Origin: Symmachiella macrocystis
Lineage (GTDB): Bacteria > Planctomycetota > Planctomycetia > Planctomycetales > Planctomycetaceae
NCBI RefSeq assembly: GCF_007860075.1
Contig: NZ_SJPP01000001.1
Location: 3,817,490 to 3,881,489, forward strand
Length of the DNA stretch: 64,000 bases
Reading direction: 5' to 3'
The notes under the pieces are model-generated. The model was not told where the DNA came from. It saw only the letters and a list, made by a program, of their open reading frames with translations, and did no database searches. Every line of letters begins with the position of its first letter. Position 1 is the stretch's first letter. Of this stretch, positions 25,701 to 34,491 are shown piece after piece. Made by a program: the position numbers and the translations under genes.

Positions 25701-27065
25701 GTGAAGCCCAGCGACAACCTCGATGCCGTCACTCGCGCGGTGCTGTGGAATTCGATGTTGTGGACGGCCGGCAATGCGCTGACCTCGGGCGGGTTTTTGA
25801 GCTACTTCGCCTCGGAATTAGACGCCAGCCCGATTGTTTTGGCCGTGCTGATGGCAACGCCCGAAACGGTCGGCATCATGGCGCTCGCCGGGCGGCCAAT
25901 TATTCGTTGGTTGGGCGACCGTAAACGGACGTGGTTTGTCTGTTCCTTGATTTCGCGCGGGGCGCTGTGTGGAATTCCCTTGCTAGCCATCCCCACGCTC
26001 AGGCCGACTGGCATTGATCCCGTGTGGATCATGATCGGCTGCCTGGCCGTTGCTCAAGCGGCCCAGGCGGTTGCATTTGTCGCTTACTTTTCGTGGTTGT
26101 CCGATTTAGTACCCGGTCGTCGCTGGGGACGGTTTTTTGCGTTGCGGCAAATTGCGACCTTGGTGGTGTTGTTGGTTGTGCCGGTCGCCGCTGGTTATGC
26201 GCGTGGATATTGGCGCAGCAATTATTCCGATCAACAAGCCCTGTGGGCCTTGATGGGGACCATGCTCCTCGGCATCGCGTTGCTCTTGTTGTCGCTAGGG
26301 CCCATGCTCCGCATCCGCTCGATTCCCGTGCAGGAAGCCGCAGCGGACTTGGCCTACCAGCGGCAGGGCGTGAAAGGCGGATCGGTGACGTTGCGGGGAA
26401 TTATCCAGACGCTCGCGGATCGGCCGTTTCGTCGGCTTTGTTTTTATAGTTGGTGGTTGGCATTTTGGTCCGGGCTGACGCAGGTGGTCATCTTCAAATT
26501 TTTGTATGGACCGTTGGCGATTTCGCTCGGCACCTATTATCTGCTCTCCAGCGTGATGAAGTTGGTGCAAATTCCGATCTCTTGGAAGACGGGAGTCATC
26601 GCCGACCGGTTAGGCAACAAGACGGCCCTGATCCTGGGCGTGCTGGCAACGGCTGTGGCGATGCTGTTTTTCTGTCTGGCGGGGATCGCGCAGTGGTGGT
26701 GGGTTTTCGGAGCCTATGTGATGTGGGGCGGTTGGGGAGCCGTGAATATCGCAGCGCCCAATTTGATGCTCAAGCTTTCGCCTCCCAGCGACAATGCCGC
26801 CAACATCGCCTTATTTCGGCATGTGGCGGGGTTGATTGCGGGTGTGAGCGGAATGTTGGGTGGATTTTTGTTCGCCAAATTGGCCGAGCAGGGGACTCTT
26901 GCGATGGGATGGAATTTCACGGCGGATCCTTATCAAGTGTTGTTTCTCATTTCGTTCGTGGGACGTGCTTTGACGGTGTTTTGGATTCTTCCACTCCGAG
27001 AACCGGCTGCGAATTTCAGGGTCGACGTTGAAGAGATAGCTCCGAACGTCGATAATCCCGGCTAA
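25701..27065 (+). CDS. Major facilitator superfamily transporter
   Basis: A 454-residue polytopic membrane protein with about twelve hydrophobic segments in two halves. The loop between helices 2 and 3 is GRPIIRWLGDRKRTWFV, equivalent to the MFS 'GxLaDRxGRR' signature, and the matching loop in the second half is GVIADRLGNKTALILG. The start is GTG 25701. The substrate cannot be predicted. It lies 55 bp before the GcvH-like gene on the same strand and may be cotranscribed, though the intergenic region has no feature to prove it. Confidence 0.9.
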   Translation: MKPSDNLDAVTRAVLWNSMLWTAGNALTSGGFLSYFASELDASPIVLAVLMATPETVGIMALAGRPIIRWLGDRKRTWFVCSLISRGALCGIPLLAIPTLRPTGIDPVWIMIGCLAVAQAAQAVAFVAYFSWLSDLVPGRRWGRFFALRQIATLVVLLVVPVAAGYARGYWRSNYSDQQALWALMGTMLLGIALLLLSLGPMLRIRSIPVQEAAADLAYQRQGVKGGSVTLRGIIQTLADRPFRRLCFYSWWLAFWSGLTQVVIFKFLYGPLAISLGTYYLLSSVMKLVQIPISWKTGVIADRLGNKTALILGVLATAVAMLFFCLAGIAQWWWVFGAYVMWGGWGAVNIAAPNLMLKLSPPSDNAANIALFRHVAGLIAGVSGMLGGFLFAKLAEQGTLAMGWNFTADPYQVLFLISFVGRALTVFWILPLREPAANFRVDVEEIAPNVDNPG

Positions 27066-27120: not shown

Positions 27121-27573
27121 ATGTCCGATGATTTGATTTTTATGATGGGAAGTTACGAAGCTCGGTTTCCCAACGACCGCAATTACGTGGAAAGCCACCT
27201 GTGGTTTCAGCCCCAGGGTGAGGTGTACCGCGTCGGATTCACCGCCTATTCCGTACGGCTGTTGCAAGACGTTTATTTTTTGGATTGGATGATCGATGCG
27301 GATACCGTTGTTCGCAAAAAGCAAGAAGTGGGCGAGGTGGAGAGTTCCAAAGCGCTGTCCACCCTCTACGCCCCCGCTGACGGACGTCTCGTGGCATTTA
27401 ACGACGCGGTGTTGGATGATCCGTCGTTGATCAACACCGACAATTATGGAGCGGGCTGGTTATTCGAATTTGCGACCGAAGCCCCCACGCTGGCGCCGGC
27501 GGAGTACATCGAATTGCTCGAAGCAGGATGGGAAGCGACGCAGCGGATCATCAAGGGGCAAATGAACGATTAA
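27121..27573 (+). CDS. GcvH-like lipoyl-domain protein
   Basis: A 150-residue protein of the glycine-cleavage H-protein fold. The hammerhead beta domain carries a lipoylation-type lysine, K77, in GEVESSKALSTLYAPADG, matching the GcvH pattern 'ExVKA.S...P..G'. LINTDNYGAGWLFEF corresponds to the H-protein 'lvN..pyg.GWl' end, and the last 20 residues are a helix. The N-terminal 20 residues differ from standard GcvH. No gcvT, gcvP or lipoate ligase gene is nearby; instead it sits between an MFS transporter and an iron-sulfur/isoprenoid cluster. It may serve a different lipoate-dependent system, as free-standing H-like proteins do in some sulfur pathways, but that is speculative. Confidence 0.82.
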   Translation: MSDDLIFMMGSYEARFPNDRNYVESHLWFQPQGEVYRVGFTAYSVRLLQDVYFLDWMIDADTVVRKKQEVGEVESSKALSTLYAPADGRLVAFNDAVLDDPSLINTDNYGAGWLFEFATEAPTLAPAEYIELLEAGWEATQRIIKGQMND

Positions 27574-27737: not shown

Positions 27738-28811
27738 ATGGCAGGTCAGCGGATTACGGTGGTTATCTCCCAGGCTCAAAGCAAAAATCCCCAGCTGCGG
27801 GCCTTGGAAGAAGATATCGCCACGCAACTCATGCTTGACGGCAAAGTGGAGGTGTCGCTGGTTCCTCATCTGTACGATCTGACCACCGATCATCCCGGCA
27901 TGCTGTTCCTCAAATCGGTCCCCGGCGATCTGATCGTGCTCTCCTGGCTATACCCCCGTGCCTCGCGGTGGATTCTGGATCGTAACGGCATCAGCGGGCA
28001 AGAGGGCAAAAGCGAGTTGAAGTCCGAGGAGGAAGAAGAGGTTGACGAGGAAGAATTGCAGCCGTCAGCCAATGCCATCGGCGCGCGAGATGTTCCCAAC
28101 CGAAAAATCTATACAATCGATCTCCGCGCCCGGGATCAAGCGGCCGATTTTCTGGGCGAGATCCAGCGGATCGCCAACAGCGCTTCCGTACAAACCGTTG
28201 AGTTGCTGGACTGGATCGGCGGCACGCCCCGTCCGGACCAAATGCAGCAATACTTGAATCCGCAAAAAAATGAAAACGGCAATGGGCAACCGGTCAACGG
28301 AAATGGGAATGGCCACAGTCCGGCTGACAGCAATGGTCACCGTCCCATTGATCTCGAAAGCGGTCCGGTCAAACGTCGCTGGTATCCGGTGATCGATTAT
28401 AGCCGCTGCACAAATTGCATGGAGTGCATCGACTTCTGTCTGTTTGGGGTGTATGGCGTCGATGGGGCGGAGCGAATTTTGGTCGAGCAACAGGACAACT
28501 GTAAAAAAGGTTGCCCTGCCTGCAGTCGTGTTTGCCCCGAAAATGCCATCATCTTCCCGGGCCATAAAACCCCCGCGATTGCCGGTTCGGAGGAAGGGGG
28601 CATTGGGAATCTCAAGATCGACCTTTCCAAACTATTCGGCGCTCCGTCAGCCATGGAATTGGCGGCGCAGGAACGCGATACCGAATTGGTTGCAGATGGC
28701 CGAGATGCGGTGGGCATGACCGTCGGCATTCCCAAACGTCAAGATTCCCAGCCGCAAAAGCGCGACCAACTCGATGACCTGATTGACGGTCTCGACGATC
28801 TCGATTTTTAA
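27738..28811 (+). CDS. Ferredoxin-like protein with 2[4Fe-4S] motif and acidic linkers
   Basis: A 357-residue probable electron-transfer protein. Residues 1-200 form an alpha/beta domain (ITVVISQAQSKNPQLRALEE; SVPGDLIVLSWLYPRAS) of no known family, interrupted by an acidic stretch (SEEEEEVDEEELQ). An Asn/Gly-rich linker (QPVNGNGNGHSPADSNG) leads to a bacterial ferredoxin fold with C224-x2-C-x2-C-x3-C234 and C255-x3-C-x2-C-x3-C266P, enough for two 4Fe-4S clusters. The tail is acidic (LDDLIDGLDDLDF). GAGG lies nine bases before ATG 27738. It heads the isoprenoid cluster and could supply electrons to it, or be an unrelated neighbour; no reductase domain is fused. Confidence 0.85.
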   Translation: MAGQRITVVISQAQSKNPQLRALEEDIATQLMLDGKVEVSLVPHLYDLTTDHPGMLFLKSVPGDLIVLSWLYPRASRWILDRNGISGQEGKSELKSEEEEEVDEEELQPSANAIGARDVPNRKIYTIDLRARDQAADFLGEIQRIANSASVQTVELLDWIGGTPRPDQMQQYLNPQKNENGNGQPVNGNGNGHSPADSNGHRPIDLESGPVKRRWYPVIDYSRCTNCMECIDFCLFGVYGVDGAERILVEQQDNCKKGCPACSRVCPENAIIFPGHKTPAIAGSEEGGIGNLKIDLSKLFGAPSAMELAAQERDTELVADGRDAVGMTVGIPKRQDSQPQKRDQLDDLIDGLDDLDF

Positions 28812-28823
28812 GCAGTCGTATTT

Positions 28824-28870
28824 GTCCGCTGAGCGGACCATAATCCCTTGCACGGTCCGCACCGCGGACC
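28824..28870 (+). promoter_or_regulatory. Two tandem hairpins with the same arms before the cyclase gene
   Basis: The first is GTCCGC-TGA-GCGGAC (28824-28838). The second is GGTCCGC-ACC-GCGGACC (28854-28870). Both have 3-base loops, share the GTCCGC arm, and lie 13 bases after the ferredoxin stop and 24 bases before the cyclase GTG. Because the arms are identical, they could also pair with each other as alternative structures. They may be a terminator/attenuator or paired operator sites. Confidence 0.5.
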
Positions 28871-28894
28871 CGACTCCTGCCGCACTGCCCGCCT

Positions 28895-30733
28895 GTGTTT
28901 GCACACCCCTCCCTCACTCTCGAACGCATCGAAGGCTGTTATCAAACGGCGGCGGGGAGACTGTTGTCCGAGCGCAATGCCGCCGGACATTGGGAAGGAG
29001 AGTTGTCGACGTCGGCACTCTCAACTGCAACGGCGGTCATGGCGCTGCAAATAGTGCAGAAACACAGCACACCGTCGACGCAGGACGATCAAAATTTGAT
29101 TGATGACGGGCTGCAATGGTTGGTGGATCACCAAAACGATGACGGCGGGTGGGGCGATACGGTTCAAAGTCTCAGCAATATTTCCACCACGATGTTGGCC
29201 CACGCGGTGTTTCACGCAACCGGTACGGTTGAATCGTTTTCCAAGACCGTAACCGCTGCCCACGCTTACATAGACACCGCCGGCGGAGTCCCAGCGGTCA
29301 TTGCGCGTTATGGAAAAGACAAGACATTTTCGGTCCCGATTTTGACACACTGCGCGCTGGCCGGGTTGGTCGATTGGAGTGAAGTCTCCGCACTGCCGTT
29401 TGAATTGGCCTGTATCCCGCCGCAATTTTATAAAACCATACGCCTGCCGGTCGTTAGCTATGCGTTGCCGGCGTTGATTGCGATTGGACAAGTTAGATTT
29501 CAGCATCGCAAACCGTGGTTTTTACCGTTGCGCTGGTTGCGGCAAGCAGCGATTGGGCGGAGTCTGCGGTTGCTAGAGAAAATCCAACCGACCAGCGGCG
29601 GATTTCTCGAAGCGGCGCCGCTGACGAGTTTCGTCACCATGAGTTTGGCGGGTTGCGGGTTGACTGATCATGCGGTGGTGCGACAAGGGGTGAAGTTTTT
29701 GCGCGACTCGGTTCGCCCTGACGGCAGTTGGCCGATCGATACGAATCTTGCGACATGGACCACGACGTTGTCGGTGAACGCTTTGCAAGACGATCTGGCT
29801 GTTGCGGACCAATCAGCAATTCGCGATTGGCTGTTGCAGCAGCAATATCGCGAGGTGCATCCCTACACCAACGCCGATCCGGGCGGATGGGCGTGGACCG
29901 ATTTATCGGGTGGCGTGCCGGATGCGGATGACACGCCCGGGGCAATTTTAGCGCTACTCAAATTGCGCAAAGAGGAAACGATTCCCGCCGACGAAGCCGA
30001 GGCACTTGCGGCTGCAGTGAATTGGTTGTTGGATCTGCAAAATCGCGACGGTGGCTGGCCCACGTTTTGCCGCGGTTGGGGCGCCTTGCCGTTCGACCGC
30101 AGCGCCGCGGATTTGACAGCACACGCGATTCGGGCATTGCTCGCCTGGAAGTCACGGCAACCGGAGGCGGAGCCAACGTTGTTGTCACGGTCCGCTCAGG
30201 CTATCCAGCAGGGGTTTGCCTACTTGAGCAAAGTCCAGCGGGCTGATGGCTCCTGGCTGCCGCTGTGGTTTGGCAATCAGTTTTCACCGGATGATGAAAA
30301 TCCGGTCTACGGCACGGCACGGGTTTTGGCTGCATACGCCGCGGCCGGTCGTTACGACGCGCCTGAGGCACTCCAAGGCCTGCAATGTATCAAGTCGGTG
30401 CAAAATTCCGACGGGGGTTGGGGCGGCAATGCCGGTATTTCCTCAAGTGTCGAGGAAACAGCGCTGGCGGTTGAAGCAATATTGGCGGAAACGGAGATAT
30501 CCCCTGCCGCTGGTCGCGGGGTGGGCTGGCTGGTAAGCTGTGTAGAGCAAAATGAGTTCGCTCGCACGACCCCGATTGGTTTTTATTTCGCCAAATTGTG
30601 GTATTTTGAAAGGTTATATCCGATAATCTTCACCGTAGCCGCCCTGGGCTGCGCGCGGGCGAAATCTAGCCAGATGACTCGCGACGAGACGTTCCCTGCC
30701 GAAACTCCGTTACATAGTTCGCATTCAGATTGA
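28895..30733 (+). CDS. Squalene-hopene-cyclase-like terpene cyclase
   Basis: A 612-residue class II triterpene-cyclase-type protein, predicted to protonate and cyclise a linear isoprenoid at the membrane surface. The protonating motif is present as D343-A-D-D346-T (DADDT; canonical DVDDTA) in the GGWAWTDLSGGVPDADDT block. Several QW repeats occur (QNDDGGWGDT-like near the N-terminus, QNRDGGWPTF, QRADGSWLP, QNSDGGWGGN). The N-terminal AGHWEGELSTSALSTATA matches the start of the family. It is somewhat shorter than bacterial SHC (about 630-650) and diverges in the first alpha-barrel. The GTG start at 28895 is uncertain. It is followed after 21 bp by the DUF116-polyprenyl synthase, so its substrate may be that enzyme's product rather than squalene. 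Confidence 0.85.
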   Translation: MFAHPSLTLERIEGCYQTAAGRLLSERNAAGHWEGELSTSALSTATAVMALQIVQKHSTPSTQDDQNLIDDGLQWLVDHQNDDGGWGDTVQSLSNISTTMLAHAVFHATGTVESFSKTVTAAHAYIDTAGGVPAVIARYGKDKTFSVPILTHCALAGLVDWSEVSALPFELACIPPQFYKTIRLPVVSYALPALIAIGQVRFQHRKPWFLPLRWLRQAAIGRSLRLLEKIQPTSGGFLEAAPLTSFVTMSLAGCGLTDHAVVRQGVKFLRDSVRPDGSWPIDTNLATWTTTLSVNALQDDLAVADQSAIRDWLLQQQYREVHPYTNADPGGWAWTDLSGGVPDADDTPGAILALLKLRKEETIPADEAEALAAAVNWLLDLQNRDGGWPTFCRGWGALPFDRSAADLTAHAIRALLAWKSRQPEAEPTLLSRSAQAIQQGFAYLSKVQRADGSWLPLWFGNQFSPDDENPVYGTARVLAAYAAAGRYDAPEALQGLQCIKSVQNSDGGWGGNAGISSSVEETALAVEAILAETEISPAAGRGVGWLVSCVEQNEFARTTPIGFYFAKLWYFERLYPIIFTVAALGCARAKSSQMTRDETFPAETPLHSSHSD

Positions 30734-30754
30734 CCGACAGAGAAGGAGAATTCC

Positions 30755-32617
30755 TTGACGATCGCATCCAGCGAATCACACGGGCGAGATCAAGGTGCGA
30801 CCACTGCGACGGTCAGCGAAACGAACAGTCCCTCGGCAAAGCCGGTCAAGCGGGCGAAACGACGCAGTACCAGCCACCTGAAAGCGGTTCCAGAAACGCT
30901 CGAACTGCGGGAATCGATGCGCGACGATGCCGAGCGCTTCGTGGAGCGTCTCGACAAAAGCAAGCCGTTCAATAAAGGCGAGTTGGAGGCCTACGGTCAC
31001 GAACTGCTCAAAGAGATCAATCAGCCGGAAAAATTCCTCGGCTTCGTCATGGTGCTCATTGGCAATTTCTACTGGAAACGCCAATTCCTAGCCTTACCAT
31101 TCGACCGCCGTTTGTTGTTGCTGCCGCACTGTTTGAAACACGCCGAAGGCTGTCCGGCCGACTACGACGAATTCGGTCTCGATTGCGAAAAATGCGGCGC
31201 CTGCTCGATCGCTGATTATAAAGTCCGCGCCGAACAACTGGGCTATAAGGTCCTGGTTGCTGAAGGGTCGCCGATTGTTCTGAAGATTATTGTCTCGGGC
31301 CATGTCGACGGTATCTTGGGAGTCGCTTGTCTCAACGTGTTGGAAAAGGCGATCGACAAAGTTCTGGTCGCCGGCGTCCCCTCGTATGCGGTGCCGCTGC
31401 ATACGGGAGATTGCAAAAACACCACGCTGGATGAATCGTGGATCTGGGACTGTTTGGAAAAATACGAACCGCTCCCCGAACCGCAGACCAACGGTTATAT
31501 CCCGTTGATGCGGGCCTCGAATCGCATGTTTGAGGAACAGTTCGACGAGTTGGTTCCGCCGATTCGCAGTACGGGGGCCTCAAGCGATGTCGATTCCCCA
31601 TTGGCCTCAACCGAAGCCATTTCCTACGACTGGCTGGCGCACGGCGGAAAACGTTTGCGGCCCTTCATCACACTTGCCGCTTATGATGCGGTGAGTGGCA
31701 GCAGCGGATTGGCGGCGGGATTCGGCGATGACATCGAAATTCCAGTCGCGGTTCGCCGCGGCGCGATTGCTATCGAAGCCTTCCACAAAGCTTCGTTGGC
31801 ACATGATGACATCGAAGATGACGACCTTTACCGTTACGGCCAAGAGACATTGCATCGCCGTTACGGCACAGGCATGGCGATCAACGTGGGCGATTATTTG
31901 ATCGGCCTGGGTTACCGACTGGTGAGCCGTGGAGCTGCGGAATTGGGTGGCGATGTGGTTGCCGATGTGTTGGACAGCATGGCCAAAGCACATATCAAAT
32001 TGTGCGATGGTCAAGGCGCCGAGATGCGGTGGCAAGCCAATGGTGAAATCGACCTCACACCGATTGATGCCCTCAAAATCTATGCCCTCAAAACATCCCC
32101 TGCATTCGAGGCGGCACTGTTTGCCGGTCTGCGGATGGGGGGCGCGATCGACGAATATCGCGAAATGATTCCCGCATTTTGCCGACACCTGGGAGTGGGT
32201 TTCCAGATTCTCAACGACCTGAAAGACTGGCAGGGCGACGACGACAACAAGTTGATCGCCGGTCAAGACGCACTTTCGCTACGACCGACGTTGTTGTTGG
32301 CCATGGCGCTCGAAGCGGCCGATGCCCAGCAGCGCAGCGAACTAGAGGAGATCCTCACCGGAGAGGGTGACGGCGGATTTCGTTTGGGCCGCTTGCGGCG
32401 GATTTACGACGAGTGCGGCGTATTCGAAAAAGCCAACGCCTTGATCGAAAAATCCCGCGCACGCGCCGAAGCATTGGCCGACGACGTACAACCCGACGCG
32501 CTGCGGCAATTGTTGTATTTCATGGTCGACACGGTTCTCGCCGAGGAATCCTCGCAGACATCTCCCGCCACGTCGGTCCTTGCTCCCCTGCCGATTCTGG
32601 GAACTGTCGGAGCCTAA
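30755..32617 (+). CDS. DUF116 domain fused to a polyprenyl synthase
   Basis: A 620-residue two-domain protein. Residues ~1-60 are basic and disordered. Residues ~90-255 are DUF116: [32 protein letters not shown] with five cysteines suitable for a metal or Fe-S centre, [24 protein letters not shown] and [11 protein letters not shown]. Residues ~290-560 are an all-alpha trans-prenyltransferase: HGGKRLRPF (diphosphate site), the first Asp-rich motif D351-D-I-E-D355-D, and [14 protein letters not shown]. In the second motif the first Asp is Asn487 (N-D-L-K-D491). The start is TTG 30755 with AAGGAGA six bases upstream. This fusion is not one I know as characterised. It likely makes a C15-C20 or longer isoprenoid diphosphate for the neighbouring cyclase. 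Confidence 0.88.
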
Positions 32618-32682
32618 CGGCACGATGAAAATCGGTGCTACGAGCGGCTTTGCCGCATGTGGATTTGTGCTACCTGTAAAAC

Positions 32683-32710
32683 ACTGGCGGACGAGCCGCC
32701 AGTGGCACCC
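32683..32710 (+). repeat. Dispersed palindromic repeat, copy 3
   Basis: ACTGGCGGACGAGCCGCCAG followed by TGGCACCC: the arms ACTGGCGG and CCGCCAGT pair perfectly around ACGAG-type loop bases. It is 27 of 28 identical to copy 1 (read on the minus strand there). It lies between the polyprenyl-synthase and prenyltransferase-beta-like genes. Confidence 0.6.
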
Positions 32711-32764
32711 GATTACCTAGCGATTTCCAGTTTTTCAACTGGTTGAAAACGGCCGTTCTCCACC

Positions 32765-33751
32765 ATGCCTGCGGAACCCTATCTTCTCGAACTTGGCAAT
32801 CGCCTCAGTGCTGGATTGGCTGGACTGGATCCGCAGAGGCGCGAACGGCATCGCCGATTTATTCTGGCGCAGCAAACCGCTGATGGCGGGTTTTGCGGAC
32901 GGGAGACGCCCGAGGAACTGCGCGATCCGGGTGACGAGGACGCTCCCCGTGAATCGGACCTCTATTACTCTGCCTTTGCGGTGCGTAGCCTGGCGGTGAT
33001 GGGGGCGATCACTGCTGACGACTGCCGGCCGATTGCCGGATATTTGAAAAGTATCGATCCGTTTGGTGGGTCGGTAATCGATATCGTCAGTTGGTTGTAC
33101 TGCGCATTGATTGTACAAACGACCGCCGGCATCGACGTACTGGCCGAGCACGATCCGGACTGGCCCGTGCATTTGGCTGAGTTTCTAGAAAGCTTTCGCA
33201 CCGAAGACGGTGGATACGCCAAAACCCATGAAGGGGCCGCTGGCAGTACCTATCACACGTTTTTGATCGCGCTGTGCTATGAATTGATCGGCCGCACGAT
33301 TCCCCATCCCGATCGGTTGGTGCAATTCATCTATGATCGGCAGCGGGAGGATGGTGGGTTTGTTGAAATCGGTCCCATGAAACGCAGCGGCACCAACCCG
33401 ACCGCAGCTGCCGTGGCCGTCTTGCGGATGTACAACGCCTTTGATGATGAATTCCACCAAGATGTCCGCGCGTTTTTACGTGAAGTCCGCGGCGACGAGG
33501 GAGGTTTTCAGGCCAACACCCGTATCCCATTTTCTGATTCGCTGTCGACCTTTACCGGACTGCTGACTTGTCAGGATTTGGGCATCGACAACGTGGTCAA
33601 ACCGCACACCGTCGAGCGATTTATCAATGCGTTGGAGTTTCCCGACGGCGGTTTTCGCGGCGCTGGTTGGGATGAACAGGCGGACGTGGAATATACCTTT
33701 TATGCATTGGGTGTCTTGGGTTTGCTTGGCACCGGTGACAAGCCATCGTAG
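32765..33751 (+). CDS. Prenyltransferase-beta / squalene-oxidase-repeat protein
   Basis: A 328-residue alpha/alpha-toroid of the protein-prenyltransferase beta-subunit type. Repeats with QQTADGGFCG, FRTEDGGYAKT, RQREDGGFVE, VRGDEGGFQAN and LEFPDGGFRG are clearly spaced at about 50-60 residues. The eukaryotic beta subunits bind zinc through Asp, Cys and His; here the Cys position is E309 in D307-V-E-Y-T-F. A canonical CaaX prenyltransferase role is therefore unlikely. No alpha-subunit gene is adjacent. ATG 32765 is the only good start. It closes the isoprenoid cluster, so an isoprenoid-binding or terpene-cyclase-like role is plausible but unproven. Confidence 0.82.
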   Translation: MPAEPYLLELGNRLSAGLAGLDPQRRERHRRFILAQQTADGGFCGRETPEELRDPGDEDAPRESDLYYSAFAVRSLAVMGAITADDCRPIAGYLKSIDPFGGSVIDIVSWLYCALIVQTTAGIDVLAEHDPDWPVHLAEFLESFRTEDGGYAKTHEGAAGSTYHTFLIALCYELIGRTIPHPDRLVQFIYDRQREDGGFVEIGPMKRSGTNPTAAAVAVLRMYNAFDDEFHQDVRAFLREVRGDEGGFQANTRIPFSDSLSTFTGLLTCQDLGIDNVVKPHTVERFINALEFPDGGFRGAGWDEQADVEYTFYALGVLGLLGTGDKPS

Positions 33752-33798
33752 CCAACGGAATTGAATTCGCGGTCCTTTCGGAGTTGAAATCAGCTGCT

Positions 33799-34491
33799 AT
33801 GTCCCCACGAATTGAATCCATTCAGATCGGCCGCCCCCAACAATTCGACGGCGAGGGTGAGTCCGCCAAACCGTGGACCTCGGCCATCATCAAAATGAAC
33901 GTCCTAGGTCCGGTATTCGTAAGCCGCACCAATCTTACCGGCGACGAACAGGCTGACTCCAAACATCATGGTGGACCCGACAAAGCCGTTCTGGCGTATG
34001 CGGCGAGTCATTATCCCACGTGGAATTCTGAGATCGAGGACGTTGAGTTTCCAGCCGGCGGCTTCGGCGAAAACTTGACCGTCTCGGGGATTGATGAATC
34101 GTGCTGCTGCATTGGCGACACATTCCGCGTTGGCCAATGTTTATTGCAGGTCTCGCAACCGCGTCAGCCCTGTTGGAAACTCTCGAAACGCTGGAACGTC
34201 CCCAACCTGTCGGTGTTGGTCCAAAAAACAGGGCGAACCGGATGGTACCTCCGCGTCCTGGAAGAAGGCGAGATCGCGGCCGACATGCCGTTTGAACTCG
34301 TCGAACGACTGCACCCCGAGTTAACACTCTCCTGGGCCAGTTCGGTCATGTATGCCAAGCCAAGACAGCATGAGGACGACCTGCGATTGGCGAGTTGCCC
34401 GGAGCTCTCAGAGTCTTGGAGAACCAATCTGGAAACCCGTGCCAACCGTGGCAAGTCGCCGAGTGATGCAAAACGGTTGTTTGGGACTTAA
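33799..34491 (+). CDS. MOSC-domain protein (YiiM-like)
   Basis: MOSC proteins bind the molybdenum cofactor or act in its sulfur-carrier chemistry; YiiM-type proteins reduce N-hydroxylated compounds. The family pattern is clear: RTNLTGDEQADSKHHGGPDK, AVLAYAASHYPTW, FPAGGFGENLTVSGI, CIGDTFRVGQCLLQVSQPRQ and then PCWKL, with the conserved cysteine expected to ligate the cofactor. ATG 33799 is preferred to the TTG 15 bases upstream. Length (230) fits YiiM. No moa/moe gene is nearby; it lies 47 bp after the prenyltransferase-like gene and may simply be the end of that transcription unit. Confidence 0.88.
   Translation: MSPRIESIQIGRPQQFDGEGESAKPWTSAIIKMNVLGPVFVSRTNLTGDEQADSKHHGGPDKAVLAYAASHYPTWNSEIEDVEFPAGGFGENLTVSGIDESCCCIGDTFRVGQCLLQVSQPRQPCWKLSKRWNVPNLSVLVQKTGRTGWYLRVLEEGEIAADMPFELVERLHPELTLSWASSVMYAKPRQHEDDLRLASCPELSESWRTNLETRANRGKSPSDAKRLFGT

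Follow-up and report, generated by a model that had tools for sequence, protein, structure and literature searches.

A conserved gene set in planctomycetes joins a squalene-hopene-cyclase-like enzyme to a DUF116-polyprenyl synthase fusion: a candidate pathway to a cyclised isoprenoid lipid

Does a squalene-hopene-cyclase-like enzyme whose gene lies beside that of a polyprenyl diphosphate synthase act on squalene, or on the product of its neighbour? The question is raised by a 64,000-nucleotide stretch of Symmachiella macrocystis (assembly GCF_007860075.1, contig NZ_SJPP01000001.1, positions 3,817,490 to 3,881,489 of the forward strand), hereafter the window, which belongs to a planctomycete genome of 7.57 Mb that we label G000. 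The genes concerned are part of a set that is kept or lost together in many planctomycete and verrucomicrobial bacteria, and their cyclase is, judged by its sequence, not an ordinary squalene-hopene cyclase (SHC), as it forms a clade of its own and fails the cut-off of the corresponding NCBIfam model. We put at roughly 55% the probability that the window encodes the central part of a conserved pathway, inherited together, to a cyclised isoprenoid lipid for which squalene is not needed. The most economical reading of the set, and the best we can offer, is a pathway dedicated to cyclising a polyprenyl chain, to which an iron-sulphur/radical arm belongs.

A sequence-only reading of the window had described four plus-strand open reading frames, P0001 to P0004, and all four are found at the positions below with matching Pfam domains; the intact DADD motif of the cyclase and the 21-bp gap between the cyclase and fusion genes (30734-30754), which it had also pointed out, are likewise present in the sequence. 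To these we add a GcvH-like gene, counted as a cluster member because it adjoins the ferredoxin gene in related loci. The features are as follows.

27121..27573, plus strand: GcvH-like lipoyl-domain protein, family F3, the upstream cluster member (Pfam GCV_H 1.1e-22)
27738..28811, plus strand: 2[4Fe-4S] ferredoxin P0001, family F2, ATG start (Pfam Fer4 domains within residues 215-271)
28895..30733, plus strand: SHC-like class II cyclase P0002, family F0, GTG start (Pfam SQHop_cyclase_C 7.1e-37, SQHop_cyclase_N 1.6e-24)
29921..29932, plus strand: DADD (DxDD) catalytic acid motif, P0002 residues 343-346, in the context PDADDT, read from the sequence
30755..32617, plus strand: DUF116-polyprenyl synthase fusion P0003, family F1, TTG start with AGGAG upstream (both domains by Pfam)
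31010..31450, plus strand: cysteine-rich DUF116 domain, P0003 residues 86-232 (Pfam 1.7e-37)
P0003 residues 291-535, plus strand: polyprenyl_synt domain (Pfam 2.4e-40)
31805..31819, plus strand: first Asp-rich motif of the P0003 synthase domain, DDIED, read from the sequence
32765..33751, plus strand: single alpha-alpha toroid P0004, family F5, related to protein prenyltransferase beta subunits (Pfam Prenyltrans 4.1e-17)

The cyclase sets the first step of the argument. P0002 scores 118.9 bits against the NCBIfam squalene-hopene cyclase model TIGR01507, whose cut-off is 431.1. In a tree of 29 rows, the 22 members of its family stand apart with support of 100/100 on a stem of 4.84 changes per site, while the six SHCs group at 99/95 and the lone lanosterol synthase sits on a very long branch; the sequence-only reading had made much depend on this phylogeny, which comes out in its favour, P0002 falling outside the SHC group. 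In a PDB search with the family profile, SHC is the top match (3.7e-38) and lanosterol synthase follows (5.6e-19); drimenyl diphosphate synthase (2.9e-14) matches more weakly, as does ent-copalyl diphosphate synthase (1.9e-8). The AlphaFold2 model of P0002 has a mean predicted local distance difference test score (pLDDT) of 92.1, and Foldseek aligns it, by template modelling (TM) score over the query length, to SHC at 0.71-0.72, to human oxidosqualene cyclase at 0.73 and to drimenyl diphosphate synthases at 0.63-0.67. The DxDD motif and the related fold place P0002 among the class II cyclases. Its Asp 343, 345 and 346 are kept in 118/118 family rows. The equivalents of SHC W312, W489 and F129 are retained too, the columns of W169 and Y609 being unaligned in this comparison. 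The position of SHC residue 451 is an invariant His in the 118 rows and Arg in five of the six SHC rows, those five all planctomycete; F365 is replaced by Trp, Y420 by Phe and I261 by Ala in all, the Phe at Y420 occurring in five of six SHC rows as well. This pattern suggests that the protonation chemistry is intact and that the pocket is unlike that of SHC.

The neighbourhood of the cyclase is conserved. A scan of named genomes with the cyclase alignment gave at least 580 relatives, and our loci counts come from the best 80 of these, which by their titles are mostly Planctomycetota, with several Verrucomicrobia, two Kuenenia-titled bins and two untyped bacteria, many of the loci ending at contig ends. 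In addition, 40 stretches of at most 20 kb each were fetched from 38 genomes, 37 of them with the cyclase, out of 65 cyclase-positive genomes besides G000. In 33 of these 37 the stretch with the cyclase also holds the fusion gene, which makes the neighbourhood more than chance; the remaining four genomes have it elsewhere. Among the 80 named loci the fusion is a partner in 61; 14 of the genomes behind the other 19 were tested, and 11 hold the fusion elsewhere. The synteny in relatives that the sequence-only reading had named as a check thus exists. The further partners in the named loci are the ferredoxin (28), the GcvH-like protein (28), a small family that we call F14 (23), a radical S-adenosylmethionine (SAM) enzyme (14), the toroid (14) and a CobW GTPase (3). 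Two gene orders recur. In one, which the window shows, the cyclase is followed by the fusion; the other is longer and runs GcvH-like protein, CobW GTPase, small Cys protein, ferredoxin, radical SAM enzyme, fusion, toroid and cyclase. The four genes first described therefore do form part of one co-inherited system, but only part, since the set also includes the GcvH-like protein, the radical SAM enzyme, the CobW GTPase and small proteins of two families that lack a convincing Pfam match.

Co-inheritance was counted in 294 Planctomycetota genomes, all five genes being scored in this same set with thresholds of E ≤1.2e-30 for the cyclase, E ≤1e-20 for the ferredoxin and the toroid, E <1e-100 for the radical SAM enzyme and, for the fusion, a DUF116 domain inside a frame of at least 480 amino acids. 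The cyclase was found in 66 genomes, the fusion in 64, the ferredoxin in 69, the radical SAM enzyme in 59 and the toroid in 66, with pairwise Jaccard values of 0.84-0.96; 54 genomes hold all five genes and 17 an incomplete set, several of the latter being incomplete metagenome-assembled genomes. An independent check is provided by 194 genomes from the phylum of G294 (titled Verrucomicrobia), in which only the cyclase (E ≤1e-60) and the ferredoxin (E ≤1e-20) were counted: the two occur in exactly the same 31 genomes, on different contigs in 15 of them. Because the ferredoxin tracks the cyclase in 31/31 carriers of this second phylum, redox looks like a core part of the system and less like the possible tailoring for which the sequence-only reading had allowed. 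A natural loss of the gene set is seen in G087, a 99% complete genome of the window's own family, which at the set thresholds is without cyclase, ferredoxin, radical SAM enzyme and toroid. Its fusion frame is still open (L085:9622-11469), with a DUF116 that by eye is short of four of the seven conserved Cys. Co-inheritance and this loss together are what one would expect if a pathway is either retained entire or given up altogether.

As for squalene, an enzyme of the squalene/phytoene synthase family PF00494 was not found in 14 of the 66 cyclase carriers, a count that is 7 of 39 among good-quality genomes (completeness at least 90%, contamination at most 5%), and the five-gene module is complete in six of these seven. 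These 14 carriers disfavour squalene as the general substrate, so that a substrate other than squalene, as the sequence-only reading had proposed, is favoured. They also bear on the view that the set is a variant hopanoid pathway, in which P0002 is a second squalene cyclase that the other genes adapt. That view can draw on the other 52 of the 66 carriers, which do have a PF00494 enzyme, G000 with its presumably available squalene among them; a divergent enzyme of this family could moreover have been missed in the remaining carriers. SHC is also the closest relative of P0002 in both profile and fold, and the G000 CobW gene lies within the same 18-kb stretch as a squalene-synthase-type pair. Set against it, besides the 14 carriers, are the low TIGR01507 score and the separate clade, an ordinary SHC already present elsewhere in G000 (C1:21130-22185) and the fact that the neighbour of the cyclase is a dedicated prenyl synthase and not a squalene synthase, and we consider a variant hopanoid pathway very unlikely.

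We infer that what the fused synthase makes serves as substrate for the cyclase. The synthase domain carries both Asp-rich motifs of trans-polyprenyl diphosphate synthases, the first as DDxxD in 97/99 rows (the other two are fragments), the second as NDxxD in 77, DDxxD in 17 and ADxxD in 1, with no pattern match in 4. G000 holds two other polyprenyl synthases, which from their motifs we take to be one long-chain and one short-chain enzyme, and P0003 is thus an extra one. Before the first motif there is Ala at -5 and Ser at -4 in 97/97 rows, and Phe at -8 in 96/97. According to the passage on the geranylgeranyl diphosphate (GGPP) synthase CrtE in PMC7261888, changing Met-87, in the -4/-5 residue pair before the first motif, to Ala yields C25. 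In the three-floors model, as described in the relevant part of PMC9409350, a large residue further down can halt chain growth earlier, and the same part reports that the model was wrong for three bacterial enzymes whose second floor has Phe and whose products exceed C30. From these residues we expect a product of C20-C30, for which the Ala/Ser pair would argue for C25 or more and Phe at -8 may argue for C20.

One alternative is a class II diterpene route, in which P0003 would produce GGPP, P0002 would turn it into a labdane-type bicyclic diphosphate, and the iron-sulphur and radical SAM proteins would modify the product. Phe at this position could stop growth at C20 under the three-floors model in the part of PMC9409350 cited above, and drimenyl diphosphate synthases are among the Foldseek matches of the P0002 model (E 7.0e-18). 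However, the Ala at -5 has its counterpart in the C25-producing CrtE variant M87A described in PMC7261888, the diphosphate cyclases are shorter than P0002, and by profile P0002 is closer to SHC than to them. Nor was a class I terpene synthase seen among the recurrent neighbours, with no search aimed at one. The diterpene route therefore seems unlikely to us.

In the other half of the fusion a metal cluster is suggested by seven Cys, all of them invariant in the 43 rows that aligned out of 61 available. The DUF116 model has a pLDDT of 82.6 and is weaker around the Cys, and a fold search against the PDB gave no match at E ≤0.001, the best being E 0.037. We know of no function for DUF116. A candidate second link between DUF116 and SHC, their proximity in Brocadiaceae-like genomes (L196-L200), was rejected, as by eye the stand-alone DUF116 gene there belongs to a def-fmt-DUF116 housekeeping run; such runs were seen in the five regions fetched, with an rsmB-like gene in three, and the SHC and an HpnH-like gene stand alongside probably by chance.

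In the ferredoxin, eight Cys are invariant in 21/21 aligned rows (21 of 24 found). An hhalign comparison (probability 86%, E 4.8e-6) relates its N-domain to F8, a separate small Cys protein found in other lineages; in the window's family the domain is without the cysteines of F8, for which no convincing Pfam match was obtained; the by-eye idea that F8 is an HdrA N-domain was dropped, a PDB profile search having given no HdrA. The GcvH-like protein scores 79.4 bits against NCBIfam gcvH, below the cut-off of 115.85, and keeps its lipoyl lysine 77 in 17/17 aligned rows (17 of 22 found). The radical SAM family has CxxxCxxC in 17/17 aligned rows (17 of 20 found); none of the NCBIfam function models fits the one member compared with them (best 67 bits, cut-off 500), and the module enzyme of G057, the only member scored against NCBIfam HpnH, reaches 34.1 bits where the cut-off is 225.05. 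In G000 the radical SAM gene lies at C1:3012395-3013582, about 0.8 Mb from the cluster, and is 76% identical to a cluster copy. The CobW family has CxCC in 13/13, and the G000 member, on C2, is 71% identical to a cluster copy. It forms an 8-kb run (L203:8076-15953; C2, about 190-198 kb) with the squalene-synthase-type pair and genes that by eye are LipB- and LipA-like.

Two further radical SAM genes were seen around the set. One, HemN/HutW-like, lies upstream of the GcvH-like gene in seven of the 80 named loci (L168:5463-6782 and six others), directly before it in six, and scores 191.5 bits against the hemN model (cut-off 324.95); it is possibly an extra member of the set. The other is in G107, where no module radical SAM enzyme was found at E ≤1e-30 and a different radical SAM protein (L104:7048-8580; best model of the B12-binding TIGR04013 type, 74 of 251 bits) sits between the ferredoxin and the fusion, which it is possible to read as a replacement.

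The toroid profile matches the beta subunit of Rab geranylgeranyl transferase in the PDB (6.3e-16). Protein prenyltransferases bind zinc through D-x-C and a His; the toroid has instead D307-x-E309, invariant in 20/20 rows, so that the prenyltransferase-beta-like toroid of the sequence-only reading keeps its fold family without the D-x-C zinc ligand of these enzymes. This difference counts against another explanation, namely that the set is primarily an iron-sulphur/lipoyl redox or sulphur system, which would yield no free ring lipid: a prenyl group would either be bound by the cyclase and the toroid or be attached to the lipoyl carrier by the toroid. An Hdr-like sulphur pathway elsewhere indeed cannot do without a GcvH-like lipoate-binding protein, as stated in the relevant part of PMC6067878, genes that by eye are cysteine desulfurase-like occur in six of the 40 fetched loci, and the toroid does resemble protein prenyltransferase beta subunits. 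But the catalytic acid of the cyclase is kept throughout its family and the fused prenyl synthase has its catalytic residues intact, which leaves such a system extremely unlikely.

The small family F14 opens a different possibility, a meroterpenoid route on the model of MstE-type pathways, in which an aromatic acid would be attached to the polyprenyl chain before cyclisation. F14 typically lies just downstream of the fusion gene (for example at L174:8788-9330), and by eye it resembles chorismate lyase (UbiC/DUF98), a likeness that the searches did not confirm; MstE structures also match the cyclase model (E 2.0e-6). Against this, none of 18 F14 rows gave a convincing Pfam match, the PDB match to 2nwi was insignificant (E 0.076), no F14 gene was noticed within the window, and a UbiA-type enzyme was not seen among the recurrent neighbours, although no search was aimed at one. 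We regard a meroterpenoid product as distinctly unlikely.

We return to the dedicated polyprenyl cyclisation pathway, for which we infer the substrate, the order of the steps, the chemistry of DUF116 and what the lipoyl protein, the toroid, CobW and the radical SAM enzyme contribute. First, the P0003 synthase domain would make an all-trans polyprenyl diphosphate of more than 15 carbons, possibly C25-C30. Supplied by the ferredoxin, the Cys-rich DUF116 domain could then carry out a reductive step on the chain or its diphosphate end, after which the DxDD acid of P0002 would protonate the far end of the chain and start ring closure. Finally, the radical SAM enzyme, encoded elsewhere in G000, might functionalise the product, with the lipoyl GcvH-like protein as a thiol/electron or intermediate carrier, CobW as a metal chaperone and P0004 as a partner that binds the prenyl chain. 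Besides the squalene-synthase counts and the closeness of P0002 to SHC, three points weigh against this scheme: Fisher p-values of co-inheritance are too favourable because the genomes are related and not independent; the radical SAM family is missing in nine of the 66 cyclase carriers, including the 96% complete G284; and the role of DUF116 is a guess, given that its fold matched nothing.

It is tempting to speculate further that the set is a squalene- and oxygen-independent route from a regular head-to-tail polyprenyl, for instance hexaprenol, to polycyclic lipids. The 'orphan' tricyclic terpanes would thereby gain a biological source, and sterols and hopanoids would be joined by a third sterol-like class of lipid, one whose synthesis depends on ferredoxin, radical SAM enzyme and lipoyl carrier. 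The idea follows from the probable regular polyprenyl chain, the SHC-like cyclase and partners that, judged by their families, need no oxygen, and we hold it to be a long shot. Sedimentary tricyclic terpanes are described as 'orphan biomarkers' in the part of PMC9247107 that treats them, with tricyclohexaprenol proposed as their precursor. Should the product be a cyclised polyprenyl lipid, the biological origin of these compounds would be directly testable in culturable planctomycetes, DUF116 would acquire a function, and the pairing of an oxygen-free redox set with terpene cyclisation would be explained. The set would then be a multi-gene lipid pathway common to two phyla, its cyclase and ferredoxin coinciding exactly in one of the samples, and one whose cyclases are easily filed as hopanoid genes.

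The cluster is flanked in the window by genes outside the families that recur in relatives: a transporter-like gene (by eye of the major facilitator superfamily) at 25701-27065, directly upstream of the GcvH-like gene, and a protein with, by eye, a MOSC domain at 33784-34491, just downstream of the toroid. Repeats in the region are short two-copy matches only, and neither promoter-like sites (3, against 3.4 in shuffled sequence) nor terminator-like sites (8, against 8.8) are in excess there.

In the open PMC literature that we searched, a search mostly without subscription journals, none of the papers listed gave a description of this gene set, and there was no match for DUF116 in planctomycetes. 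The nearest reports are generic, such as a verrucomicrobial cluster with an SHC that is read as hopanoid in the pertinent part of PMC8692599.

Among known systems, the sHdr-LbpA sulphur oxidation system, as described in the relevant part of PMC6067878, also employs a GcvH-like lipoyl protein outside glycine cleavage with iron-sulphur partners; it differs in having Hdr subunits where the present set has prenyl enzymes, and an Hdr operon was not seen among the recurrent neighbours. With SHC (TIGR01507; PDB 1SQC), P0002 shares the two-barrel fold, the DxDD acid and the W312 and W489 equivalents; it differs in its own clade, its low score, its changed pocket and its linkage to a prenyl synthase instead of squalene genes. 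The class II diphosphate cyclases, such as the drimenyl diphosphate synthase SsDMS and ent-copalyl diphosphate synthase, have DxDD chemistry and a related fold in common with it, with a weaker profile match. Protein prenyltransferase beta subunits belong to the toroid family and are the best PDB match of the relatives of P0004, which has D-x-E in contrast to their D-x-C. The merosterol cyclase MstE is a class II cyclase that acts on a prenylated aromatic and has a single barrel; it matches P0002 structurally and differs in that single barrel, and an aromatic partner would be a guess here. In the sesquarterpene route of Bacillus, a polyprenyl synthase, YtpB and the tetraprenyl-beta-curcumene cyclase SqhC are not known to work with DUF116, a lipoyl protein or a radical SAM enzyme. 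The likeness lies in an SHC-like cyclase acting, as we propose here, on a long prenyl product other than squalene, and the difference in a synthase that is fused to DUF116 and accompanied by a lipoyl protein and a radical SAM enzyme.

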